A DNA stretch of 41,695 bases from a virus. How positions within the stretch are numbered: position 1 is the first letter of the stretch; every line of letters starts with the position of its first letter. Shown here piece after piece: positions 22,523-29,618 of the stretch. Made by a program: the position numbers and the translations under genes. The DNA lies in IMG/VR virus record IMGVR_UViG_3300013286_000023, positions 1 through 41,695 of that record. One strand, 5' to 3'. Below the pieces are notes generated by a model. It did not search any database and was not told the origin of the DNA. It was given only the letters and a program-made list of their open reading frames with translations.

Positions 22523-22746
22523 GGCTTTTGACCTTAGATATCCCTGAGATAGAATCAGAGATAGCTAAGATGGAAAATGAGTCAAAAGCCTTAAAGAAAG
22601 AAATTTTTAAACTGTCTTGGTATATGAGAGGAGGTCTCAGTTTTACTGAAGCCTACATGCTTGATCAAGAAGATCGAGAAATTATTACTAAAATTATTGA
22701 AGAAAATTTAGAGTTGACTAAAGCCAGTCAAATGCCGTTTTTTTAG
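22519..22746 (+). CDS. Small hub-assembly partner of the gp26-like protein
   Basis: A protein of 75 residues starting at the ATG that overlaps the preceding stop (ATGA). It has a helical N-terminus followed by KLSWYMRGGLSFTEAYMLDQ and then DREIITKIIEENLELTKASQ, ending MPFF. This WYMRGG-x-x-x-x-EAY, DRE-x-I-x-x-II-x-EN pattern is common in small genes directly after gp26 in T4-like phages. Position suggests a role like T4 gp51 (hub assembly), although T4 gp51 is much longer; alternatively it is a tail-assembly chaperone. The C-terminal end overlaps the convergent gene at 22743 by four bases. Confidence 0.72.
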   Translation: MRLLTLDIPEIESEIAKMENESKALKKEIFKLSWYMRGGLSFTEAYMLDQEDREIITKIIEENLELTKASQMPFF

Positions 22747-23516
22747 ATATTCATATCTAAAAAACTGCTGCGTACTTTGCCTTCTTCCATATTACGAATT
22801 GGCAATCCATTTATATTTCTTGCAGGCGGCGGGGTAGGAACTGTTTGTCTAACTTGTGGGGGCGGTGTTGTAAAAGATGATTGGGGTGCCGCAGGTTGAG
22901 AAACTGGTCTTGCAACATTTCTAACACTAACTGGTGCATTGGCCATTGTATTAGGACCAGCGACAGTGTTGGCCATATTGCTAAATGCTCCTGAACCAGC
23001 GGTATTTGGTGCATCCGTTGTGCTACTAGCAGGTGCGCTTGATGGAGAATTTATAGCTTGAGCAGCTTGTGCTTGTCTAGATTGTCTAACTTGACTAGGT
23101 GTTGGTTGTAGTGTACTAGCTGGTGTTGGTGGTGTTGTACTAGCTGAAGTCGATTGTGTATTACTAGGCGGTGCAACATATGGTTGCCCTTGTCCGCCAG
23201 CAGCGCGACTCGCACGTTGCGGTTGTCTAGATCTTGGAACATTTTGGATAGGAGTTGCAGTAGTTTGGGCCGAAGTTCCTCCATCAAGCGCATCTGCTTG
23301 TTGTCGTAATGTTAGTGCTTGTTGTGCCTGTTGCTTAGAGTATCCGCCACCTGCACCAGAAACTGCGCCACGTCCACCTTGATAGCCCTGCTTAAATCTA
23401 TCCCACGCACCATGAACTCCACCAGCAACCGCGCCAACAGCTCCCACACCTGAGCCAATAGCTGATGCTATTCCTTCTTCAGTTTGGGTTTCAGTTAATA
23501 TATCATTGATACGCAT
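22743..23516 (-). CDS. Low-complexity Ala/Pro/Gln/Ser-rich protein, probably virion
   Basis: A protein of 257 residues, with ATG at 23516 and AGGA upstream. The N-terminus MRINDILTETQTEEG is followed by a Gly/Ala/Val-rich hydrophobic helix (about 17-35). Next is HGAWDRFKQGYQGGRGAVSG, then about 180 residues of disordered Ala, Pro, Gln, Ser and Thr. The last residues (LPIRNMEEGKVRSSFLDM) are more conserved-looking. A perfect late-promoter motif lies just upstream, so it is late and plausibly virion-associated. Proteins with a similar start (MRIN-x-IL-x-E) occur in uncultured aquatic phages. I cannot name a function; an internal head or tail protein is one possibility. Confidence 0.6.
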   Translation of the reverse strand: MRINDILTETQTEEGIASAIGSGVGAVGAVAGGVHGAWDRFKQGYQGGRGAVSGAGGGYSKQQAQQALTLRQQADALDGGTSAQTTATPIQNVPRSRQPQRASRAAGGQGQPYVAPPSNTQSTSASTTPPTPASTLQPTPSQVRQSRQAQAAQAINSPSSAPASSTTDAPNTAGSGAFSNMANTVAGPNTMANAPVSVRNVARPVSQPAAPQSSFTTPPPQVRQTVPTPPPARNINGLPIRNMEEGKVRSSFLDMNI

Positions 23517-23541: not shown

Positions 23542-23549
23542 TATTTATA
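23542..23549 (-). promoter_or_regulatory. Perfect T4 late-promoter motif (TATAAATA)
   Basis: TATAAATA on the minus strand lies 26 bases before the ATG at 23516. It sits directly after the last hairpin of the structured region, within an AT-rich near-palindrome. Confidence 0.6.
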
Positions 23550-24019: not shown

Positions 24020-24445
24020 TTATGATTTTAATATATGCGAGCCATGCACTCTTACGGATATTTGTCCATTATAGAACTGGTCCGACTCTAACACTTTATG
24101 TTCAAACTGTAATTTTGCTTCAATGTAACTACACTCTGCTTTACTCTTGCAGTAATGTAATATTTCTCTTTTAAAATTTTCTTTGCCTAAATTTTCTATA
24201 TCTTTGTTTAATTCTATCGACGAGCCGTAATACTCTTCCCAGTCACTAGGAATTTTACTTCTAATCTTTTTCTTTTTCTTTGTGCCATTCTTTAATTGTA
24301 CATTCTTATAAGTAGTTTTTGCAAACTTTGCAAGTTTCTTACCTATATATTTTTTATTATTTGTTAAATTTGTTATACAATATACATAACCAACACAATC
24401 TTCCGGAAGTTCGATAACTTCTTGTCCTTGATAGTGCCAAGTCAT
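24020..24445 (-). CDS. GIY-YIG family nuclease, SegE-like
   Basis: A protein of 141 residues. GYVYCITNLTNNKKYIG (19-35) holds the GIY-YIG pair (Tyr20-Val-Tyr22 and Tyr33-Ile-Gly35). A Lys-rich insertion follows, then DWEEYYGSS, Arg93 in FKREIL and Glu109 in CSYIEAK, which match the catalytic Arg and the metal-binding Glu of the family. The small size and the WEEYYGSS block resemble T4 SegE-type free-standing homing nucleases. Proteins like this are widespread in T4-like phages and may be domesticated. The start is ATG at 24445, three bases after the preceding stop. It is followed by the structured non-coding region. Cleavage specificity cannot be told from the sequence. Confidence 0.75.
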   Translation of the reverse strand: MTWHYQGQEVIELPEDCVGYVYCITNLTNNKKYIGKKLAKFAKTTYKNVQLKNGTKKKKKIRSKIPSDWEEYYGSSIELNKDIENLGKENFKREILHYCKSKAECSYIEAKLQFEHKVLESDQFYNGQISVRVHGSHILKS

Positions 24446-24665: not shown

Positions 24666-25007
24666 TTATTTGTTTTTAGCAGCAGATCTATTGCTTGCTC
24701 TCAATTTTCTAGCTTGAATTTTAGCTTTATTGTTCATTACTTGCTTACTTTTTGTAATCTTTCGATTTTTTCTTTCCTCATCAAGAGAAGCTGCATTAAA
24801 AGTTCTTAATTTTTTTAATAACTTACCCATTTTCATACACTGGGAGCGAAACTTAAATGATGATTCAACCCCAGTATGCGTCATATAAGTTGTATGGTAG
24901 TTATGCAGTGCAACGACATCGGCCAAAAAATCTGAATATAGATCTTTATAGGCCTGTGTTTTTTCAGTTGACGTACTCTGCGCCGCTAGAATAGCTCGTG
25001 AATCCAT
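24666..25007 (-). CDS. Small basic protein of unknown function, overlapping gp46
   Basis: A protein of 113 residues, starting ATG at 25007 inside the last 44 bases of gp46 with GGGTGG upstream. The N-terminal half is helical with aromatic residues (YKDLYSDFLADVVALHNYHT). The segment FKFRSQCMKMGKLLKKLRTF is followed by a strongly basic C-terminus (about 75-113). Layout and charge suggest a nucleic-acid-binding protein. It resembles a longer relative of the neighbouring Hc1-like protein in spirit, but I see no shared motif. The function is unknown. Confidence 0.55.
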   Translation of the reverse strand: MDSRAILAAQSTSTEKTQAYKDLYSDFLADVVALHNYHTTYMTHTGVESSFKFRSQCMKMGKLLKKLRTFNAASLDEERKNRKITKSKQVMNNKAKIQARKLRASNRSAAKNK

Positions 25008-26742
25008 TTTCTTTTACCACCCTTAATACACTGTTCACTCGTCCCATAAGTTCATCCTTATGGCTTATCAAGTAAATATTCTTGTTTCTTTCTCTGGCCA
25101 TCTTTTTTAGTACGGCCAAAGCACTTTCAACACCTGCGGCGTCCATGCCAGAATCAACTAATTCGTCAATGAATAATAAATTAATCCCCTGATATAGTCC
25201 TTCCCAAACATCTCTAAATGCAAAACTCATACTTAGTATTAATCTGTTGCGCTCTCCACGTGACAAATTATCAAAATCTAAGTCCTGTCCTAATTGAGTT
25301 ATTTCTACAGTTAGGTCATTTTGGAATACTACCCTGTGTGGAAGTCCTAGACAATCAATATAGTAACCCAATCTCCTATTTAGATAGCTTAAATTCTGAT
25401 CAATTATCTTCTTACGGATAAAGCTATCTTTGTTTGTTAACAATTTTAATAAAAATTCTTGATGATCCTTAAGTCTAGATAGTTCATTGACACGATTCCA
25501 GGATATTTCTTGTATGGCAGTCCTTCTAAGTTCTTCAACTTGTTCAGAATAAGGATTAATTTCATCCGCTCTAGCAGTTAAAGATTTTTCTAAACTGTCT
25601 AAATTGTTTTTATGCCCCAAAGCTTCGGCTTCAGTGTCATAAAACGTTAAAGGTTTATGGGGTTGGTCCCCTGTACCTAATTCTTCTACAACTTTATTGT
25701 AATCATTACTAACTTTATCAAAATATTTCTTAGATTCTTCCAAGTGTTGTTGAGCAACAGCTGACATTTCTTCATGTTTATGGTCATGCAGTTGTTGTTC
25801 ACACGCATGACACGTTTTGTTTGCTAAACTTTTTAATTCTTGTTCATATTTTTTAACAGTCTTTTCAGCTTGTCCTAATGCAGATTCTAAAGTTGCTCGC
25901 TGCTTATTAAGATTTGTTATTTTAGTATTATGCTCAGTCCACTGTTTGAGTTGCACATGTACCGCTAGTTCATTTTCAATATTAACTTCACTCAGCGTAT
26001 GTATGTTATTAACCATAGTGGAAATATCAGATTCTTGTTTAGAATCCCATGCTATGCTGCGTATCAATAAACTATCAATGCTTTTTTGTATATTTTCGTT
26101 GGCTTTTTTAGTAGCTTCTATGGTTGCATTTTCAGATATAATTAAATCTTTAGTATCTTTGACTGAATTTTTAAGCATTTCTGCTTTTTCACTTAACAGC
26201 GTAATACCCAGCAGTTGTTCAATGATCTCTCTTTGTTCAGCTGCTCGCATACTTAAGAAAGGTTCAGTATAGGTGTTTAACGCAACTAAATGTTTGAACA
26301 TTGTATGGCTCATACCTAACATCTGTTCAATAGATTTTTGTGTTTCTCTACTATCTCCCTGACTGTCATCTTCTGATTCATCAGTTTTTATCTGACTATC
26401 ATTAACATACAGTTTAAGTACGTTGGGTTTACGGCCCCGTTCAATCCTGTAACTATTGCCATCTTTATCAAATTCTACAGTAACCAACATGGCTTTGCCG
26501 TTGATCTTATTGATTAAATTTTCTTTTTTAATGTTTGTTAGGGCTTGACCGTATAGCGCATAACTTAATGCGTTGATAATAGTGGTTTTTCCAGTACCAT
26601 TACGTGATCCAGTATCGTCTCCACCTAGATCTAAATTTTCTCCCAGCACTAGAGTAAGTAATTCTTTGTCAAATTGTACAGCCTGGGTTTGATTACCCAC
26701 ACTCATGAAGTTTTTAGCGGTAATATTCTTTAATTTAAACAT
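24964..26742 (-). CDS. 46: Recombination nuclease ATPase subunit gp46 (Rad50/SbcC type)
   Basis: A protein of 592 residues (T4 gp46: 560). It has the N-terminal Walker A GSRNGTGKTT (46-55), a Q-loop region near 160 and long coiled coils. The zinc-hook CHAC is at 311-314, the ABC signature LSRGERNRL near 493, and Walker B LLFIDELVDSG with Asp526 and Glu527. With gp47 it forms the Mre11-Rad50-type complex that resects DNA ends for recombination-dependent replication and host DNA breakdown. The start is ATG at 26742, overlapping the gp47 stop by one base (TAATG). The pair is therefore translationally coupled. Confidence 0.95.
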   Translation of the reverse strand: MFKLKNITAKNFMSVGNQTQAVQFDKELLTLVLGENLDLGGDDTGSRNGTGKTTIINALSYALYGQALTNIKKENLINKINGKAMLVTVEFDKDGNSYRIERGRKPNVLKLYVNDSQIKTDESEDDSQGDSRETQKSIEQMLGMSHTMFKHLVALNTYTEPFLSMRAAEQREIIEQLLGITLLSEKAEMLKNSVKDTKDLIISENATIEATKKANENIQKSIDSLLIRSIAWDSKQESDISTMVNNIHTLSEVNIENELAVHVQLKQWTEHNTKITNLNKQRATLESALGQAEKTVKKYEQELKSLANKTCHACEQQLHDHKHEEMSAVAQQHLEESKKYFDKVSNDYNKVVEELGTGDQPHKPLTFYDTEAEALGHKNNLDSLEKSLTARADEINPYSEQVEELRRTAIQEISWNRVNELSRLKDHQEFLLKLLTNKDSFIRKKIIDQNLSYLNRRLGYYIDCLGLPHRVVFQNDLTVEITQLGQDLDFDNLSRGERNRLILSMSFAFRDVWEGLYQGINLLFIDELVDSGMDAAGVESALAVLKKMARERNKNIYLISHKDELMGRVNSVLRVVKENGFTSYSSGAEYVN

Positions 26743-27755
26743 TATAGTTCGTTATAAATTTCTAATAGCATGGATTTGTCAAACTGTTCTGATTCTATGT
26801 TGACTAGACTATCTGTAACAATTTGATCAACGCTTTCAAAAGTAGTATCTAAGTTTTCAGCAGTACTGCCTTCTAAATTAACTTTATCTTGAATAAGACT
26901 GATTTCACGTATGTCGTAATCATTCATAAAAGTTTCTTTAATGAAGTTTGCTTCTTCAAAGCTGATATCTATGTCTAGATTTACTTTAAAATGCATCTTA
27001 CCTTTCATGATAGAGTCTTTTTGATCAATTAAATTGCTAAGTTTGATAGATCTATACTTGGGGCAGTTGGTCCAATTGATAAATTGTGGATCTCCACCCC
27101 ATTCTAACGTCATCATACCACGTTCATCATCCCCTGCATCACTGTAGTTGTGTGGGAACGCATTTCCAATATAGATTACCTTATTGTTTTCTTGACGTTT
27201 ATGGAAGTGTCCGCTGAATATATAGTCAGGACCATTAAAGTCTTCTGCCCTAAGTTCGCCGTGATCGGGCATTTGTACCATGGCGTTCATAAAGAATTTG
27301 GGCAATTCAAAGTGACCAAAGACATATCGACTTTTAATGTTCTTCATGGTCTTCCACTCATCACCTATTAACCAAGGTACAAGTGTGACATCATCCCGGC
27401 TCCATATACTGTCTACAACAGTGACGCCTGGAATGTGCCGACCAAAAGCACTCGAATGAATGTCACGCTTGTCTTTGTAGAACAGATCGTGGTTACCTGG
27501 GAACCAAAAGAACTGCTCAAATGCAGCACCGAGTTTCTCAAGGCAGCGTAAACTGCTATCTAATGTGAATAAGTTTAGACTGTTACGGTTATGACTCCAA
27601 TCACCCAAAAAGATTGCTGTTTCACACCCAGCAGTTTGTGCTTCTTGAATAAACCAGTCTACAAATTCTTCACAATCTCGCAAATGAGTGGATGAATTTG
27701 ATTTTAATCCAAAATGTATATCTGTAAAACATGCAACCTTTTTAAATAGACCCAT
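26742..27755 (-). CDS. 47: Recombination nuclease subunit gp47 (Mre11/SbcD type)
   Basis: A protein of 337 residues, as in T4 (339). The five phosphoesterase motifs are present: TDIHFG (Asp12, His14), LGDWSHNRN (Asp52), PGNHD (Asn88, His89), FGHFE (His148) and SGHFHKRQ (His183, His185). It is the Mn-dependent nuclease partner of gp46. The start is ATG at 27755 with GTAGGAGA nine bases upstream. It lies 49 bases after gp55 on the same strand. An acidic C-terminal region (about 240-337) is typical of the part that docks on Rad50-like partners. Confidence 0.95.
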   Translation of the reverse strand: MGLFKKVACFTDIHFGLKSNSSTHLRDCEEFVDWFIQEAQTAGCETAIFLGDWSHNRNSLNLFTLDSSLRCLEKLGAAFEQFFWFPGNHDLFYKDKRDIHSSAFGRHIPGVTVVDSIWSRDDVTLVPWLIGDEWKTMKNIKSRYVFGHFELPKFFMNAMVQMPDHGELRAEDFNGPDYIFSGHFHKRQENNKVIYIGNAFPHNYSDAGDDERGMMTLEWGGDPQFINWTNCPKYRSIKLSNLIDQKDSIMKGKMHFKVNLDIDISFEEANFIKETFMNDYDIREISLIQDKVNLEGSTAENLDTTFESVDQIVTDSLVNIESEQFDKSMLLEIYNEL

Positions 27756-27804: not shown

Positions 27805-28716
27805 TTAAAGATCATCGTTTTCTATTTCTTCTTCTTCCGATACAGTTTCGCTCTTGGGCATACGCATATTTTTATACAGCTCTGCTTGCCGTGCAATTTC
27901 TTCGGCATATTCTTGACTATTTTGTCTAGTTAGGCTTGGCGTTAACCCAGCTTCTTCCAATAGATCATCCCTAATATTTTGACTCTTTTTCTCAATGTTC
28001 AATATTCTAGTAAAGCTGTTTGTTACGGCAGCAGTGTAGTAAGCAAAGGGATTTTCACTTTTTGATTCGTCAAACTGTAGACCAATATGACTTAATTGTA
28101 GGATAGCCTGTCCTTTCATTTCATCAATGTAAGTGTATCCCCGCCAATTGCTACGCTGTGCGTATCTTTCGCTGAGTTTAATAAACATCTTACCTAAATT
28201 TTCAGTGATGCGCCCTTTATCTTTATCAAAATGCCCTGTATCTACAGGACCGCGCCAATGGCTTTTACCTACACATGTTAATTCATCTTGATCATTGTAT
28301 TTCCAATGTTGGAATGGTGGGAAATTTACTTTGTCATGACTATCTGCTGTAGTTTTTGTAGTCTTTTTTCGGCCAGGGGCAAGGGGAATATGATCAAAAG
28401 TCATGATTCTTATGATCACATCAGTTTTGGCAATGGTAGTGTAGTCAGGAATGCATTCTGCCAGTTTGACTTTCTTGTCTCCGTTGAGTCTGGCCTGGCT
28501 AAAAATCTGTATCCCTATACGTTTTGCTCTGGCTCTTTTGGCTTCAGCTACTGTTCTAATATTAACTTTGGATAGATTGGGTAAAATAATATCGTGTTGT
28601 TGATATTCTGGAAGAACAAAACTAGAAAAGCTGCATTTACTCTTGTGAATTTCTGCTAGTAGATCTCGATTATTTAGATATTTGACTTTTCTAGTTGTGG
28701 GAATTGGGGTGCTCAT
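27805..28716 (-). CDS. 55: Late-promoter sigma factor gp55 with long N-terminal extension
   Basis: A protein of 303 residues (T4 gp55: 185). The gp55-like core is at about 165-260: ENLGKMFIKLSERYAQRSNW, GYTYIDEMKGQAILQLSHIG and ENPFAYYTAAVTNSFTRILN, with the following IEKKSQNIRDDLLEE. It recognises the TAAATA late element. The first 165 residues (KYLNNRDLLAEIHKSKCSFS, then LPNLSKVNIRTVAEAKRARA, then IIRIMTFDHIPL) are absent from T4 gp55. They resemble a short conserved protein I associate with T4-like cyanophages, so a fusion is possible. The C-terminus is very acidic. The start is ATG at 28716 with AAGGA about 13 bases upstream. Both a sigma70-like and a late-type promoter lie upstream. Confidence 0.85.
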   Translation of the reverse strand: MSTPIPTTRKVKYLNNRDLLAEIHKSKCSFSSFVLPEYQQHDIILPNLSKVNIRTVAEAKRARAKRIGIQIFSQARLNGDKKVKLAECIPDYTTIAKTDVIIRIMTFDHIPLAPGRKKTTKTTADSHDKVNFPPFQHWKYNDQDELTCVGKSHWRGPVDTGHFDKDKGRITENLGKMFIKLSERYAQRSNWRGYTYIDEMKGQAILQLSHIGLQFDESKSENPFAYYTAAVTNSFTRILNIEKKSQNIRDDLLEEAGLTPSLTRQNSQEYAEEIARQAELYKNMRMPKSETVSEEEEIENDDL

Positions 28717-28743: not shown

Positions 28744-28771
28744 AGTATAACATAGATGTATCCAATGTCAA
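28744..28771 (-). promoter_or_regulatory. Sigma70-like promoter for gp55-gp47-gp46
   Basis: On the minus strand, TTGACA (28766-28771) and TATACT (28744-28749) are separated by 16 bases. They lie about 30-55 bases before the gp55 start. This fits host-polymerase transcription of the gp55, gp47, gp46 run early in infection. Confidence 0.55.
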
Positions 28772-28794: not shown

Positions 28795-28802
28795 TATTTA
28801 TA
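28795..28802 (-). promoter_or_regulatory. Perfect late-promoter motif (TATAAATA) upstream of gp55
   Basis: TATAAATA on the minus strand lies about 80 bases before the gp55 ATG and just upstream of the sigma70-like promoter. It would let gp55 reinforce its own expression. It sits two bases from the plus-strand motif at 28805-28812, back to back. Confidence 0.45.
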
Positions 28803-28804
28803 TT

Positions 28805-28812
28805 GGTAAATA
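28805..28812 (+). promoter_or_regulatory. Late-promoter-like motif (GGTAAATA) for the baseplate run
   Basis: GGTAAATA on the plus strand lies 17 bases before the ATG at 28830, with AAAGGA between. It has two differences from consensus but is identical to the motif at 11960-11967. Confidence 0.35.
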
Positions 28813-28829
28813 ACATTAAAGGATATATT

Positions 28830-29618
28830 ATGTCATTGTCTCCGCAAGAAGAACAACAACTTAGCAATTTAGCTGTTGGGGTCGGTCTGTCAGTTTTAAA
28901 AAAAGCACTTAGTAAAGGGGCTATGCCAGGAAATGTGCCGGCACCCCAAGTTAATGTTTTTAAAACAGACGGCACACAACTGAGCAATGATAATAGGGTA
29001 AAAATTCAAGTTCCGATTGATTATTATTCTTCTTCTTTAATGAATGGAGTTCATCAATCCGAAACTAATTTAACTAAATTTAAAGGTATTGTATTTCCCT
29101 ACACGCCAACCATACAATATGAAACTAAGGCAACGTACTCTCCTAAGAATACCGTGCATTCTAATTTTACACAATATTTTTATCAGAATAGTTCAGTCAC
29201 GCCAATAACAATAAGCGGAAAATTTACTGTAGAAAATGACGATGATGCAGCATTTTTGTTAATGACACTTCATTTACTTAAAACATTAACAAAAATGAAA
29301 CAGGGAAAAGATAGTAACGCCGGAGCTCCACCGCCAGTATGTAAATTATCTGCATATGGCAATTACATGTTTGATAATGTTCCAGTAGTTATATCATCAT
29401 TCACACATGAATTGCCTGACAACATTGATTATTTTACAACATCTAAAATGAATAAAGTTATTGATATTAATTTGGCAAATAATTCTGTTCCAGTAATATC
29501 CAGTATAAAAGTTATTTGCACACCGGTATATAGTCGACGACAAATGACTAATTTTTCAGTAGATCAAATGATAGGCGGCAATTATAATTTACAAGGTAAT
29601 GGGAAGGGATATCTATAA
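28830..29618 (+). CDS. Tail-tube or hub structural protein (possible gp48/gp54 counterpart)
   Basis: The frame opens at TTG 28803, but ATG at 28830 (MSLSPQEEQQLSN) has AAAGGA six bases upstream and lies after the likely promoter, so I prefer it; this gives 262 residues. Key blocks are IVFPYTPTIQYETKATYSPK, HSNFTQYFYQ, ITISGKFTVENDDDAAFLLM, APPPVCKLSAYGNYMF and LPDNIDYFTT. This set occurs in tail-tip proteins of aquatic myoviruses placed before gp53. In T4 that position belongs to the tube cap and initiator (gp48, gp54), so a tube-baseplate connector is plausible, by inference. It overlaps the gp53-like gene by one base (TAATG). Confidence 0.65.
   Translation: MSLSPQEEQQLSNLAVGVGLSVLKKALSKGAMPGNVPAPQVNVFKTDGTQLSNDNRVKIQVPIDYYSSSLMNGVHQSETNLTKFKGIVFPYTPTIQYETKATYSPKNTVHSNFTQYFYQNSSVTPITISGKFTVENDDDAAFLLMTLHLLKTLTKMKQGKDSNAGAPPPVCKLSAYGNYMFDNVPVVISSFTHELPDNIDYFTTSKMNKVIDINLANNSVPVISSIKVICTPVYSRRQMTNFSVDQMIGGNYNLQGNGKGYL

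Follow-up and report, generated by a model that had tools for sequence, protein, structure and literature searches.

Activation of transcription by a sliding clamp has its textbook example in the late genes of bacteriophage T4, where it proceeds by way of gp55, gp33 and gp45. The gp33 protein binds the β flap, on the region-4 side. In the cryo-EM study of the T4 late complex, N13 of gp55 was found to contact the −9 base, and the passages on the N-terminal region of gp55 term it poorly conserved and missing from many homologues (PMC7892883). The corresponding passage of a T4 review presents the same part, segment 1, as conserved, W23 included, and calls its relation to sigma regions 1.1 and 1.2 unknown (PMC2988020). 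In sigma70, the place between regions 1 and 2 is taken by the NCR, residues 128-372 (PMC7822876), which, according to the passages devoted to it, touches the β′ clamp toe and the spacer DNA and takes part in opening the promoter and in escape from it (PMC8113463, PMC7822876).

The window analysed here, a whole virus record of 41,695 nucleotides, probably represents part of a larger genome. Its open reading frame at 27805-28716 (minus strand) encodes a gp55-type late sigma factor of 303 amino acids, and this assignment is confirmed. PHROG 12791 ('sigma factor for late transcription') matches residues 8-271 with an E-value of 4.5e-82, the surplus sequence included, and PHROG 234, the T4-type gp55 family, matches residues 163-283 only. 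The protein is a regular member of the known jumbo-phage family PHROG 12791, together with those of RaK2, 121Q, GAP32, CBB, PA5oct and Atu_ph07; it is 33-44% identical to the ten annotated jumbo-phage relatives aligned with it, and no material difference from them was seen. The gene is adjoined by those for a gp47-like SbcD subunit (26742-27755, minus strand) and a gp46-like SbcC subunit (24964-26742, minus strand), while baseplate and other virion genes lie on the opposite strand. Placement near gp47 and gp46 is shared with T4. The order gp55, gp47, gp46 is also present in PA5oct, GAP32 and RaK2, it occurs with one small gene in between in cyanophage S-SSM5 and in Atu_ph07, and in Phosso and SCTP-2 the genes following gp55 are different ones.

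A sequence-only reading of this locus had proposed that gp55 carries about 165 extra residues at its N-terminus. The surplus is real, as T4 gp55 has 185 residues versus 303 here, and the start of the sigma core is indeed near residue 165, which is borne out by the extent of the PHROG 234 match. The place of the surplus, on the other hand, is different from the one proposed: residues ~7-27 align with residues 4-24 of T4 gp55, and the new sequence comes after them (compare ...KYNYVNNKELLQAII in T4 with ...KVKYLNNRDLLAEIH in the window protein). Both sequence blocks quoted in support of an extension are present, at residues 12-27 and 101-112; the first, KYLNNRDLLAEIHKSK, is ordinary gp55, being the N-terminal segment of the T4 protein itself with the promoter-contact residue N13, and the second, IIRIMTFDHIPL, does fall in the additional sequence.

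Two family profiles, made from 11 jumbo-phage proteins and from 138 sequences, each matched T4 gp55 in two pieces lying in the same order. With the larger profile, T4 residues 4-34 were aligned to profile positions 3-33 (8.5 bits, conditional E-value 1.3e-4 in a two-sequence search) and T4 residues 23-116 to positions 150-241 (37.7 bits, 1.6e-13), so that ~116 profile positions separate the pieces. The underlying alignment comprises the window protein and 137 of 291 distinct trimmed relatives, all from the loci collected, after a cut at 85% identity and with the sequence carrying an intein-like insert described at the end (L177) excluded. T4 was alone among the 11 insert-less gp55s run in giving a separate segment-1 piece (RB49 gp55 was taken without its N-terminus here and in the tree described below), which leaves T4, together with the motif present in six proteins, as the basis of the sequence case. 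The full-length model, obtained with AF2 from the 138-sequence alignment (mean pLDDT 90), brings out the same arrangement more clearly: in VIA, predicted residues 13-246 superpose on residues 10-117 of T4 gp55 (7d7c_F) with a Z-score of 14.6 and an rmsd of 1.4 over 98 residues. The piecewise matches and the superposition together identify the first quoted block as T4 segment 1, with ~130 residues inserted after it. An N-terminal extension is thereby ruled out, and it is near certain that a domain of ~130 amino acids has been spliced in behind segment 1 and before the core. From segment 1 to the core there are 177 residues in the window protein versus 49 in T4, a net surplus of ~128.

Judged from alignments and the predicted structure, the window gp55 keeps the T4 plan (PDB 7d7c/7d7d; PHROG 234) of segment 1, region-2 core and helical C-terminal part, with the additional domain between the first two. 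Segment 1 (residues 11-27, with KYLNN..SK; 28636-28686, minus strand), delimited by the profile pieces, AF2 and VIA, has a predicted helix at residues 16-29. The counterparts of T4 Y10 and N13, here Y13 and N16, are found in 138/138 sequences, and the position of T4 W23 is occupied by serine (S26 in the window) in all 138 as well. The region-2 core (residues 166-246; 27979-28221, minus strand) is homologous to that of T4 gp55 by both profiles and superposition. Most of the residues that read the late promoter in T4 are kept at the sequence level: five of the seven promoter-pocket residues (N13, R57, F86, Y97 and T99) are each retained in 134-138 of the 138 sequences, those of the core being R188, F215, Y226 and T228 in the window protein, and the other two are replaced (L54 by Y, H95 by F). 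T4 R114 is K in the insert-bearing proteins. Two of the three T4 residues that bind the clamp helices are changed in them, D74 to Q and E77 to L, and E70 is kept. Behind the core, AF2 and the alignment delimit a conserved stretch (residues 247-264, IRDDLL..G..PS.TR; 27925-27978, minus strand) which by its position would fall in the helix-loop-helix region of T4. The last predicted helix extends to residue 284, and the tail with its acidic end (residues 268-303; 27808-27915, minus strand) is variable, with a mean conservation of 0.37.

The promoter sequences around the gene are consistent with this assignment. A sigma70-type promoter, TTGACA-16-TATACT, was found by sequence scan upstream of gp55 (28744-28771, minus strand), and the late-promoter core TAAATA, also characteristic of T4, lies on the other strand (28807-28812, plus strand), 23 nt before the start of the divergent virion gene at 28830. 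Across 240 unique intergenic regions between gp55 and the divergent reading frame, which are related to one another and hence not independent, a looser TTGAC-TAnnnT pair was present on the gp55 strand in 180 versus 4.5 expected, and TAAATA on the virion-gene strand in 225 versus 59 expected, the expectations being derived from nucleotide-pair shuffles. Of 241 TAAATA occurrences, 196 are placed 20-34 nt before the divergent gene start. The hexamer is above expectation on the gp55 strand too (99 versus 57 in the 240 regions). Within the window, TAAATA precedes 6 of 25 chosen gene starts by 15-45 nt (0.4 expected); two of these six are virion genes (28830 and 34961), one is without a PHROG match, and at this spacing none was found before gp55, gp47 or gp46. 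In phage CBB, the passage on late promoters reports an ATAAATA motif before virion genes, at 35 sites (PMC5259590). Taken together, the host-type promoter and the TAAATA pattern suggest that gp55 is expressed from the former and, very probably, serves late promoters of the T4 type. The full T4 consensus octamer, TATAAATA, is not enriched in the window, where it is rarer than expected (2 versus 8.2). Its sites are at 23542-23549 and 28795-28802, and one of them ends ~25 nt before the start of the gene at 22743-23516, for which no PHROG match was found.

The inserted domain covers approximately residues 28-163 (28228-28635, minus strand), with edges uncertain by a few residues, as judged from the 138-sequence alignment and from AF2 prediction of the insert alone. 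The latter gave a mean pLDDT of 96.8 and a pTM of 0.88, so the surplus appears to be a genuine folding unit, as had been supposed; the supposed fusion to the N-terminus of the sigma factor is replaced by insertion behind a T4-like segment. The model consists of a long helix (53-77), short helices and short strands. D42, I44, R103, H109, F132, S152, H153 and F163 are invariant in the 138-sequence alignment, and eight columns are invariant in a separate alignment of 110 insert sequences. A basic loop at residues 116-121 (RKKTTK; 28354-28371, minus strand), recognised in the alignments, has R116, K117 and K121 each conserved at 95-96% among the 138 sequences and is shorter in the GAP32/RaK2 branch. 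The net charge of the insert is positive in 81 of 110 sequences and ranges from −14 to +13; this range and the shortened loop indicate that a basic face is not universal. A metal-binding domain, considered on account of the conserved H109, H137 and H153, was set aside, as glutamine replaces H137 in RaK2 and in Vibrio 2.275, and the latter also has tryptophan in place of H109.

Searches for a known counterpart of this fold gave little. A profile search with residues 1-160 alone, which had been proposed as a check, returned PHROG 12791 as the only match at E ≤ 1. No Pfam or NCBIfam match was obtained for the insert of the window protein, the 110 insert sequences gave only scattered weak Pfam matches in a few members, and three insert-bearing proteins were without a match in NCBIfam. 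Among the libraries searched (Pfam, NCBIfam and PHROGs), the domain occurs only inside PHROG 12791. Against the PDB, Foldseek of the insert found nothing convincing (best E-value 0.82) and VIA no fold match (best Z-score 3.1). A likeness to the RNA polymerase omega subunit in a PDB profile search (E-value 0.46) was followed by no fold match and was taken as chance. Among predicted viral structures (BFVD) the insert matched A0A2Z5HHY8 (134 amino acids, E-value 6e-5), which was dismissed as a stand-alone copy: the whole gp55 model matches it too (136 columns, 37% identity), and for this reason it is probably a gp55 fragment. The best viral match of the whole model, A0A8S5T0K9 (340 amino acids, E-value 1.8e-17), belongs to the family and is absent among the 50 matches listed for the insert alone. 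Searches by fold can thus miss relatives, and the want of a PDB match says little in favour of a new fold, which from the models is possible.

As far as sequence comparison goes, the insert is usual in gp55 of jumbo phages of the RaK2/121Q/GAP32/PA5oct/Atu_ph07 type (PHROG 12791). With the entire protein as query, 1815 phage records were matched, and in 56 the match extended over 80% or more of its length; 54 of these are 284-490 kb in length, and the remaining two are shorter Klebsiella phage records (109,507 and 24,610 bases). Other gp55s were matched in the core. Among 415 fetched loci (292 distinct sequences, some contigs fetched more than once; T4 and S-SSM5 not counted), 409, the window's copy included, have a reading frame that spans the profile from segment 1 across the insert and the core; since the loci were fetched with insert-bearing queries, this figure describes integrity and not frequency among all gp55s. 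Of the six exceptions, three lie at contig ends (L268, L138 and L247), one is broken by an in-frame stop (L057), one has a reading frame with an end unlike that of the family (L243), and one, also at a contig end, carries an intein-like insert (L252). Two findings had been named in advance as jointly contrary to a fused domain, namely that the surplus is usual in the group and that the protein aligns with T4 gp55 throughout; the former was observed and the latter was not. In the literature searched, that is titles and abstracts with most subscription journals outside the coverage, we found the gp55 insert described nowhere, and the passages on gp55 in the accounts of CBB, Atu_ph07 and phAPEC6 do not mention it.

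A separate problem is whether the domain exists as a gene of its own, as would be expected of a fusion with a known stand-alone gene; none was found by tblastn of 50,697 phage records or by scans of viral-contig stretches and of prokaryote genomes, within the listings given below, and a fusion of this kind was accordingly set aside. Residues 1-155 matched 58 of the phage records, 57 with the same gp55 and one by chance (E-value 8). The SCTP-2, GAP32 and Atu_ph07 queries matched 46, 77 and 57 records, with no stand-alone gene among the matches listed; for the 77-record query 60 are listed, 16 of them Synechococcus phages at 38% coverage and E-values of 3-4. The insert alone gave no stand-alone copy in the best 80 of 575 viral-contig stretches, and in prokaryote genome contigs it gave four loci, each with a full sigma factor and no stand-alone copy, which probably sit in viral contigs among MAGs. 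Because the viral-contig scans cover the best 80 of hundreds of stretches and used insert-bearing queries, rare stand-alone copies may be missed.

One plausible explanation of the insert starts from its position. In VIA the predicted gp55 also superposes on sigma70 (6ca0_F; Z-score 10.8), with 92 aligned residues over 110-447 and ~246 sigma70 residues skipped. This number is the size of the NCR, which by deduction places the insert at the NCR position; VIA reports the ends of the aligned range alone, and the exact insertion point in sigma70 is likewise deduced. These range ends, with the T4-based position of the insert, put it between regions 1.2 and 2.1, as the NCR is in sigma70. No sequence or fold match to the NCR was present among the matches listed (25 of 44 weak Pfam families, Foldseek and VIA), so the likeness is one of position only; the insert is about half the size of the NCR, and the functions cited for the latter are known for sigma70. 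We consider the chances about even that the insert is an NCR-like module in the late sigma factor of a T4-related jumbo phage, a function suggested by where it lies. According to this proposal, gp55 would, like its T4 counterpart, bring host RNA polymerase to TAAATA promoters, and the inserted domain would lie next to region 2, close to the bubble's upstream edge. It might then work like the sigma70 NCR, touching the β′ clamp, the promoter DNA immediately upstream of the −10 element, or both, and thereby stabilise the complex or aid its escape. We counted in favour of the NCR-like module the two-piece match to T4, the VIA results, the kept pocket residues, the TAAATA data with the CBB motif, the contacts described for the NCR and the prevalence of positively charged inserts; against it, the weak profile match of segment 1, the range of charge, the changes at D74 and E77 and the excess of TAAATA on the gp55 strand.

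A different possibility, and perhaps the most interesting open one, is that the insert is a coupling module which ties the late holoenzyme to the sliding clamp or to a replication protein. A domain of undescribed fold at the NCR position would then replace the gp33 and clamp-motif machinery of T4, giving a single-chain sigma factor with a different coupling to polymerase or replication; we regard both the module and this replacement as rather unlikely. The gp33 family phrog_254 was found in both controls (T4, 1.6e-33; S-SSM5, 1.4e-36), yet went undetected at E ≤ 0.001 in all 17 insert-bearing records, of which seven are IMG/VR contigs and perhaps fragments, one having only 28,846 bases. Weak gp33 matches in Phosso (0.026) and Hallingskeid (0.060) were dismissed as chance, because a second match in T4 has 0.033 and 4 of 14 control genomes match at E ≤ 1. 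In the pertinent passages of the CBB account neither gp33 nor gp45 was found (PMC5259590), whereas a survey, in its part on the matter, credits group 2 jumbo phages with a gp33 orthologue (PMC7824862); the latter conflicts in part with the non-detection and leaves room for a diverged gp33. Matches to the clamp family phrog_223 were obtained in both controls and, among the 17 records, in Vibrio 2.275 alone and weakly (1e-5); as such phages should possess a clamp, its absence is to be read as failure of detection and means little. A simple C-terminal clamp-motif pattern of our own, drawn on T4, was found in five of eight gp55s without the insert (T4, nt-1, Ah1, Roth22 and RB49), in one of 138 insert-bearing sequences and in none of the 11 proteins comprising the ten annotated jumbo relatives and the window's gp55. 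It also misses S-SSM5, Melnitz-2 and Yut3, so that either some gp55s lack the motif or the pattern is drawn too tightly. Within the insert, no clamp-binding motif was recognised. With gp33 and the T4-type motif undetected in the group, a link of the insert to another factor, as the sequence-only reading had imagined, is conceivable. That the insert is gp33 itself, joined to gp55 in one chain, we disfavour as very improbable. Engineered gp55-gp33 fusions are functional, according to the passage of the T4 review dealing with them (PMC2988020), and a separate gp33 was not detected in the 17 records. Nevertheless, T4 gp33, a late co-activator acting in the same pathway and encoded there by a separate gene, has no profile similarity to the insert: the hhalign probability was 0.1% against T4 gp33 and against T4 and S-SSM5 gp33 together, that is against one and two gp33 sequences only. 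PHROG 12791 is the sole match of residues 1-160, the insert is predicted to be of mixed helix and strand, and it precedes region 2, whereas gp33 binds on the region-4 side.

By analogy, the insert could also serve as a docking site for a phage or host regulator, such as an anti-sigma factor, a timing factor or a defence protein, with no direct role in initiation. The passages on EcmrR show that the sigma70 NCR binds this activator (PMC8113463), and the mean conservation of the insert, 0.62, is below that of the core (0.80) and of segment 1 (0.78), yet it contains invariant residues. No partner for the insert was identified, and we find this role doubtful. Finally, the insert might be a lineage-specific decoration of a permissive loop, devoid of a specific role. 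The loop does vary elsewhere: six T4-type gp55s have 45-50 residues from segment 1 to the core, and there are 63 in Maynard, 85 in Campylobacter phage CP20, 94 in Vibrio phage Va1 and 168-224 in ten insert-bearing proteins (phiM9, Roth22, RB49 and Vibrio 2.275 stand outside these counts, the last being mis-scored at 24 where the pattern matched an earlier place). These lengths make the loop look like a place that accepts inserts. However, the eight invariant columns in the 110 insert sequences argue against mere decoration, as does the tree of segment 1 and core, from which CP20 was left out and in which the 38 sampled insert-bearing proteins form one clade with moderate support (0.845), apart from 11 others; we therefore hold a decoration to be very unlikely. 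In Va1 (L436) and CP20 (L440), a shorter surplus lies in the same loop, and none of the blocks of the jumbo-phage insert was seen in it.

The late sigma family of jumbo phages was known; its inserted domain, at a telling position, is real. Neither gp33 nor the clamp motif of gp55 was detected in the jumbo phages examined, while gp55 has a conserved domain at the site of the variable domain of sigma70. If this domain has indeed assumed some of the coupling, the model of T4 would be one of two solutions; even otherwise, these phages offer a natural test of an insert between regions 1.2 and 2.1 in a minimal sigma factor. Boundaries are now given for this domain, confined to PHROG 12791 in the libraries searched.

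Two minor observations may be added. In two related gp55 genes (L177:1157-2980 and L252:2408-3901) the core is interrupted at one and the same position, after NWRGY, by an intein-like insert. That of L177 is read through back into the core and has Pfam matches to intein-splicing (E-value 0.0015) and LAGLIDADG (0.0086) families, both weak and below the curated cut-offs; that of L252 runs off its contig and gave no Pfam match. Within the window, a reading frame of 141 amino acids (24020-24445, minus strand) matches PHROG 447, labelled NAD synthetase (2.4e-38), and more weakly families of homing endonucleases, so that the labels conflict.
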